Source of the DNA: Sulfurospirillum tamanense
GTDB lineage: Bacteria > Campylobacterota > Campylobacteria > Campylobacterales > Campylobacteraceae
Assembly: GCF_016937535.1 (NCBI RefSeq)
Contig: NZ_JAFHKK010000015.1
Location: 1 to 60,224 of the forward strand
DNA length: 60,224 nucleotides
Reading direction: 5' to 3'
Under the pieces are notes generated by a model. That model searched no databases, had not been told where the DNA came from, and saw nothing but the letters and a program-made list of their open reading frames with translations. Numbering within the stretch: position 1 is the stretch's first letter; each line of letters begins with the position of its first letter. The position numbers and the translations under genes are program-made. Shown here piece after piece: positions 56,422-57,339 of this stretch.

Positions 56422-56428
56422 TATAATA
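56422..56428. promoter_or_regulatory. Overlapping -10 boxes for gap and nadD-rsfS
   Basis: TATAATA reads as TATAAT rightwards (56422-56427, for nadD-rsfS) and as TATTAT leftwards (56423-56428, for gap). The 68-bp divergent gap has no clear -35 on either side. Competition between the two directions is possible. Confidence 0.45.
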
Positions 56429-56475: not shown

Positions 56476-57339
56476 ATGAAACTTGCTATTTTTGGTGGCT
56501 CTTTTGATCCCCCGCACACAGGCCATGAAGCCATCATTACCGCTGCTTTAAAGCACCTAACCCCTGATCTTCTTGTGGTCGTTCCCACGTGGCTAAACCC
56601 TTTTAAAACCGCCGTAAGTGCACCTGCTAACTTACGCTTGGCGTGGGTGCATAAAGCGTGGGGCCACTTACCACATGTAGAAATTTGCCCTTTTGAAGTA
56701 GAGCAAGCGCGTGCTGTGCCTAGCATCGAGACAGTGAAGCACCTCTGTAGCACCTACCAACCTAGCCATATTTTTCTCATTATCGGGGAAGATAATCTAG
56801 CCTCACTTGGCACATGGAACAGTTTCCAAGAACTTTCGCGCTTGGTGGAGTTTGTCGTTGCCACGCGAGGCGGAAAACTAAAGACTTCCTTGAAAAAATT
56901 GTCTATAAATGTTACTATCTCATCCTCAAAACTTCGGGAACACCTCGACGCGTCAAAGCTACCCAAACCGATTGTTGTTGACGTACTGAATTACTACCAC
57001 ACAAGGAAACCAATGAAAGAGCGCATTGAGCGTATCGTCGCACTGCTTGACGACAAAAAAGCAGAAAATATCCAAGTTTTTGATATGCACGGGAAAGAGT
57101 ATTTTGTTGAACAAGTGGTGATTGCCACAACCCTAGGCGAGCGTCACGGCGCATCACTTTTGGACGAATTGCGAGAAGTGCTTAAGCCTTTGGGAGAAGA
57201 GTTTTTACATGTAGACCCAGCAAGTGAATGGGTTGTTGTGGACTTGGGCGATATTCTAGTGCACCTGATGACACCTGCTTACCGCGCGCGTTATAACCTC
57301 GAAGAGTTTTTAAGCGATTTTGAACGACAAAAGATGTAG
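56476..57339 (+). CDS. nadD-rsfS: In-frame fusion: NadD nicotinate-nucleotide adenylyltransferase - RsfS ribosome silencing factor
   Basis: 287-aa continuous frame. Residues 1-179 are NadD: GGSFDPPHTGHEAI with the HxGH motif, WLNPFK, IIGEDNL and ISSSKLREHLD. Residues 180-287 are RsfS (DUF143): MKERIERIVALLDDKKAENI, then DFVIATT-like VVIATTLGERH, and the C-terminal WVVVDLGDILVHLMTPAYRARYNLEE. In relatives these are two adjacent genes (Cj1404/Cj1405 from memory). Here no stop codon separates them, but an internal ATG at 57013 follows AAGGA with 6-nt spacing, so free RsfS (108 aa) may also be made. NadD makes deamido-NAD; RsfS blocks ribosomal subunit joining. Confidence 0.88.
   Translation: MKLAIFGGSFDPPHTGHEAIITAALKHLTPDLLVVVPTWLNPFKTAVSAPANLRLAWVHKAWGHLPHVEICPFEVEQARAVPSIETVKHLCSTYQPSHIFLIIGEDNLASLGTWNSFQELSRLVEFVVATRGGKLKTSLKKLSINVTISSSKLREHLDASKLPKPIVVDVLNYYHTRKPMKERIERIVALLDDKKAENIQVFDMHGKEYFVEQVVIATTLGERHGASLLDELREVLKPLGEEFLHVDPASEWVVVDLGDILVHLMTPAYRARYNLEEFLSDFERQKM

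Follow-up and report, generated by a model that had tools for sequence, protein, structure and literature searches.

An in-frame nadD–rsfS fusion in Sulfurospirillum tamanense and its relatives, with a conserved putative internal rsfS start site

Results

A single open frame carries NadD and RsfS domains

The window, that is, the whole 60,224-nucleotide stretch of Sulfurospirillum tamanense DNA that was analysed (contig NZ_JAFHKK010000015.1), contains an uninterrupted open frame at 56476–57339 on the + strand. In its 287 codons, a NadD domain is followed by an RsfS domain with no stop codon between them. The features of the locus are as follows.

56476..57012, + strand: NadD (nicotinate-nucleotide adenylyltransferase) part, codons 1–179; supported by Pfam, TIGR00482, motifs and structure matches
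57003..57007, + strand: AAGGA, Shine-Dalgarno-like motif for the putative internal RsfS start; position kept in fused and split relatives
57013..57015, + strand: internal in-frame ATG, putative RsfS start, codon 180; a start codon is found near the RsfS start in relatives
57013..57339, + strand: RsfS (ribosome silencing factor) part, codons 180–287 plus stop; supported by Pfam and TIGR00090
57331..57357, no strand assigned: 12-pair hairpin with a T run on the + strand, between the convergent nadD–rsfS and argS

The Pfam models CTP_transf_like and RsfS matched residues 5–155 and 186–278 of the fused ORF, respectively, both with scores above the gathering cut-off, and the PF02410 match spanned profile positions 2–97 of 98, indicating a full RsfS domain. 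The ORF also scored as NadD with TIGR00482 (128.4 bits against a cut-off of 112.45) and as RsfS with TIGR00090 (89.1 bits against 56.9). A first, sequence-only reading had described nadD and rsfS as fused in frame and the two proteins as joined in one polypeptide; the uninterrupted 287-codon ORF, with two full domains above both the Pfam and the TIGR cut-offs, bears this out. The fused protein had a single match in the S. tamanense genome (a 2.46-Mb draft in 63 contigs), and a search across this genome found no second rsfS, the fused ORF being the sole RsfS match.

The locus lies between a divergent gap gene on one side and a convergent argS on the other, and the other genome of the genus shows the same order gap/nadD–rsfS/argS. 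The hairpin at the argS side is a possible terminator; it was identified by consensus match only, in a scan that found 2 hairpins against a shuffle mean of 1.0. A perfect TATAAT is present at 56422–56427 in the divergent region between gap and nadD, some 50 bases ahead of the nadD start codon. That start codon itself directly follows a TAA, and no Shine-Dalgarno match reaching 4 bases precedes it.

Both halves of the fused protein appear intact

Both nucleotidyltransferase motifs, HxGH and SSS/TxxR, are present in the NadD part of S. tamanense, and the residues of HxGH (H14, G16 and H17) and SSSxxR (S149, S150 and R154) were invariant across 14 fused relatives. Within the genus, purifying selection acts on both domains (dN/dS of 0.20 for NadD and 0.04 for RsfS; dS about 1.2). 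In S. aureus RsfS, the residues contacting uL14 are Glu70, Asp81 and Tyr98 (PMC7125091). By spacing comparison rather than direct alignment with the S. aureus protein, D256 and Y273, which are both invariant in the fused relatives, are separated by 17 residues as are Asp81 and Tyr98, while D247 would be equivalent to Glu70 only if a 2-residue gap is assumed.

An AlphaFold2 model of the fused protein had a mean pLDDT of 87.6, with both domains fairly confident, and contained one predicted helix (residues 164–193) connecting the NadD and RsfS domains; the domain arrangement is unsure because the pTM was only 0.65. The top PDB matches of the model were solved NadD structures, and no solved structure of a fusion was found among 29 matching PDB sequences, each of which covers one domain or the other. 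Both domains would presumably work in the fusion.

The putative internal rsfS start is conserved at the DNA level

The sequence-only reading had also noted that codon 180 is an ATG preceded by AAGGA. This motif is indeed present at 57003–57007, ending 5 bases upstream of the ATG at 57013, and a 16S 3′ end with CACCTCCTT is present in the S. tamanense genome. AAGGA overlaps the Arg177 codon AGG (57004–57006). In 460 kb of stretches from the same genome, which served as the background for codon and Shine-Dalgarno rates, AGG accounted for 6.2% of Arg codons and 2.2% of internal in-frame ATGs carried a Shine-Dalgarno match of at least 5 bases. Because of this low background rate and the rare Arg codon, the combination of AAGGA and ATG 57013 goes beyond chance expectation.

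The same signal was found across the fused relatives. An in-frame start codon, ATG in 58 cases, lay close to the RsfS start in all 62 representative fused genes. When we required a start within −6 to +4 codons of the RsfS domain start and 4 or more bases matching TAAGGAGGTG, 58 of the 62 genes passed, as against 5.1% of control windows from the same ORFs; with a stricter match of at least 5 bases, the figures were 81% of junctions and 0.5% of control windows. The motif preceded 6.6% of the other in-frame ATGs in these fused ORFs. Permutation of synonymous codons with the protein held fixed gave an expectation of 26.1 genes (sd 2.5, maximum 33, 500 shuffles) against the 58 observed. In a wider window, 109 of 112 different fused ORFs kept a Shine-Dalgarno-like motif and a start codon; two of the exceptions (L020 and L044) had AGGG instead of AGGA, and the third (L268) had no start signal.

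Relative to the nadD frame, the motif occurred in all three phases (32, 20 and 8 cases), as in ACA-AGG-AAA (TRK), AAA-GGA-CAA (KGQ) and TAC-AAG-GAA (YKE). Since the encoded residues differ by phase while the DNA motif is constant, the motif is conserved as DNA and not through the protein alone. In the clade of S. tamanense itself, Arg177 was encoded by AGG in all 3 compared genomes, the NadD parts of which were 51–67% identical, while other identical residues shared a codon in only 37–59% of cases. The internal ribosome-binding site and start are thus conserved beyond the need of the protein, as would be expected of a gene with two products. This DNA-level conservation in nearly all fused genes makes it very likely that the internal RsfS start is used, in line with the initial proposal that a separate RsfS could still be translated, and RsfS is probably also made alone from ATG 57013. 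Part of the conservation could reflect inheritance from recent split ancestors, as the fusions are possibly young. A search for an internal rsfS promoter gave one promoter-like site (56890–56918), a yield not above that of shuffled sequences (1 against 1.3).

The fused and split states recur among the Campylobacterota

A look for the same fusion in related genomes, which the sequence-only reading had advised, gave a clear outcome. The second genome of the genus encodes the same 287-codon fusion with 77% identity, so that both available genomes of the genus are fused, and the genes are fused at the same place in two further genera of the family (G405 and G421). Of 299 genomes drawn evenly across the order, 55, from 10 of 23 families, carried the fusion, many of them complete single-contig genomes. 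Sulfurospirillum cavolei, Campylobacter concisus and several Sulfurovum MAGs are among the named relatives with the fusion. Thus, the earlier supposition that the relatives have two genes did not hold for the nearest relatives, all of which are fused, and a recent, unique loss of the nadD stop codon was rejected. These genome searches covered the Campylobacterota; a separate scan of viral contigs found no relative of the fused protein, and a viral source of the fusion was discarded.

We sorted 229 loci into classes and chose 156 representatives of them for tree building. Of these representatives, 62 were fused, a class overrepresented in the sample because the search query was itself fused. 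The genes were adjacent and in frame with a stop codon between them in 30, out of frame with overlapping open frames in 48, out of frame with a gap in 6, and apart in 10. In 44 of the 48 overlapping pairs, the end of nadD lay 4–41 bases beyond the first base of the rsfS start codon. The distance from the end of the NadD profile to the RsfS start was usually 4 codons, leaving no linker.

On a FastTree tree of the representatives, which rests on a short alignment and has many weak branches, 33 fused/split changes were counted against a shuffled mean of 48.6, and the well-supported (starred) branches force at least 27; both figures count changes without direction, not fusions. Sister or near-sister rows had opposite states (L050/L123, L147/L204 and L063/L159), while some clades, such as Sulfurospirillum-type genomes and Campylobacter concisus relatives, were fused over long distances. 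The changes are too frequent to be oriented as fusion or fission on this tree. In family f18 (L086, L090, L097, L099, L104, L106, L109 and L117), rsfS adjoins nadD on the opposite strand, and the conserved tandem order is broken.

Discussion

We have described an in-frame nadD–rsfS fusion that recurs among the Campylobacterota and retains, at the DNA level, an internal rsfS start site. Our preferred explanation, to which we assign a probability of roughly 0.78, is that it represents the in-frame form of a conserved tandem nadD–rsfS pair with a drifting frame, yielding a fusion plus an internally initiated RsfS.

In Campylobacterota, nadD and rsfS usually abut or overlap, and the ribosome-binding site and start codon of rsfS lie within the final nadD codons or immediately after them. 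According to this proposal, small indels or stop codon changes at this short junction would move the nadD frame or stop relative to rsfS. An overlapping pair allows three frame settings. Two of these let nadD end shortly past the rsfS start, whereas in the third, nadD either stops ahead of that start or reads through RsfS to give the fusion. Where the frames coincide and no stop precedes the rsfS start, ribosomes translating NadD would continue into RsfS and produce a 32-kDa NadD–RsfS protein, while other ribosomes could initiate internally at the retained AAGGA...ATG and produce a 12-kDa RsfS. Both products would then be made, every NadD having an RsfS tail and RsfS being both tethered and free. 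Changes within some tens of bases could toggle the state and leave both domains and the rsfS start site untouched. Such toggling would explain the recurrence, the missing linker and the retained internal start together. The simple loss of a nadD stop, first suggested as the origin, is not supported, since the nearest relatives are all fused and many split relatives overlap in another frame, so that an indel separates the two states. We infer that the fused state is nearly neutral or, at most, mildly favoured. That the state switches repeatedly while the internal start is conserved speaks for a fusion that is mainly a side effect of the overlap between the genes, with free RsfS still being produced.

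The fusion could instead have been selected as a bifunctional protein, either coupling NAD supply to ribosome silencing or serving as a bulkier 50S anti-association factor, which we consider unlikely. The retention of the fusion over long distances in the Sulfurospirillum-type and Campylobacter concisus clades and the single predicted helix joining the domains would suit such a protein, but the domain arrangement in the model is uncertain at this pTM, and a stable advantage is not apparent with at least 27 state flips among relatives. RsfS with an N-terminal His6 tag has been used in a 50S complex (PMC7125091), and an N-terminal extension therefore need not block binding. However, the internal start is kept, so that free RsfS is probably still needed, and a table row of PMC3223725 reports neither pyrophosphatase nor NAD cleavage activity for the corresponding Wolinella fusion. 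A more elaborate idea, which we regard as rather doubtful, is that the junction is a selected evolutionary toggle, with lineages going back and forth between joined and separate NadD and RsfS; tethering would bring an enzyme of NAD synthesis to the 50S subunit or make RsfS sense NaMN, ATP or NAD, and the internal start would set the ratio of tethered to free RsfS.

It is quite improbable that the internal ATG and AAGGA are unused relics of a recently lost gene boundary, with the fusion as the sole product. Although the high rate of change means that fusions can be young, and L268 exists without an internal start, the signal is retained in 109 of 112 fused ORFs, persists in fused-only comparisons despite diverged synonymous sites (the dS of about 1.2 in the genus), and is accompanied by a synonymous-codon bias towards the motif in fused genes. 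A sequencing or assembly error, in which a missed stop or frameshift merged two genes, was raised at the outset as what would undo the fusion and is conceivable for a 63-contig draft, but it is refuted to near certainty, as the fusion is unbroken at the same place in the other assembly from the genus and in several genomes of the order that are complete in a single contig.

The fusion itself is already known and is neither unique nor recent: the NadD–YbeB fusion protein of Wolinella succinogenes had been tested biochemically by 2011 (PMC3223725, BMC Genomics). S. tamanense has the same uninterrupted NadD-then-RsfS architecture, a likeness of the same two domains in the same order within the same phylum. 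The activity result cited above stands there under Iojap/COG0799, and an NAD-dependent role predicted earlier for the RsfS family was, in the passages found, not borne out in the assays tried; those passages do not mention an internal start, the spread of the fusion or its evolution (PMC3223725). There is no mention of nadD in PMC3400551, a paper on RsfS. No publication dealing with the internal start or with repeated switching came up, which, as coverage of the literature was partial, is weak evidence of novelty.

Several known arrangements resemble this locus in part. Tandem nadD–rsfS pairs of other bacteria have the same gene order, and many relatives have the rsfS ribosome-binding site inside the nadD end; unlike in S. 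tamanense, a stop or a different frame parts the two proteins. The NF005519/PRK07152 type, which we take to be the bifunctional NadD–YqeK fusion, likewise has an N-terminal NadD fused to the product of a neighbour, but the partner in S. tamanense is RsfS. Membership in NF005519 was rejected, as the ORF scored 130.2 bits against a cut-off of 315 and matched only positions 1–172 of 361. In infB and cheA, an in-frame internal start yields a short product with the C-terminal part in addition to the full-length protein. S. tamanense would share with them an internal ribosome-binding site from which the C-terminal part is made as an additional, shorter product, with the difference that its short product would be a complete gene product that is separately encoded in relatives. 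The MALSU1–L0R8F8–mtACP module sits on the mitochondrial large subunit; it is comparable, by analogy only, as an RsfS homologue with extra protein mass on the large subunit, and differs in that its partners are non-covalent and include no NAD enzyme.

The new element here is how often the state has switched at a junction that conserves an internal start. Any benefit of the fusion is hypothetical, and finding the two genes fused is in itself weak evidence that NAD synthesis and ribosome silencing are functionally linked. The dozens of fused-versus-split pairs in close relatives offer a natural test of fusion function against a by-product of drifting overlap. Annotation of such fused ORFs as single proteins probably overlooks a second product.

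Some loci depart from the common junction. L268 (G396:C12:33968-36837) is fused and has neither a start codon nor a Shine-Dalgarno motif near the RsfS start; a fusion is evidently maintainable without an internal start, and this locus may be an obligate fusion, which would offer a natural test of the proposal that two products are made. In L154 (MAG contig JALVVR010000014.1), the RsfS part directly follows the NadD SSTKLR and the NadD C-terminal helix is missing, yet AAGGA and ATG remain in place. In Campylobacter concisus-type genes (L029, L030, L032–L035, L037 and L038), the RsfS start is apparently duplicated, giving MQERS-MQER at the junction, and the ribosome-binding site precedes the first ATG. 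Finally, L257 (G353:C1:1817600-1820600), an ORF of 582 codons, carries an in-frame insert of about 270 residues within the NadD domain, of low complexity and rich in S, A, N and D, and retains the RsfS part and the internal start.
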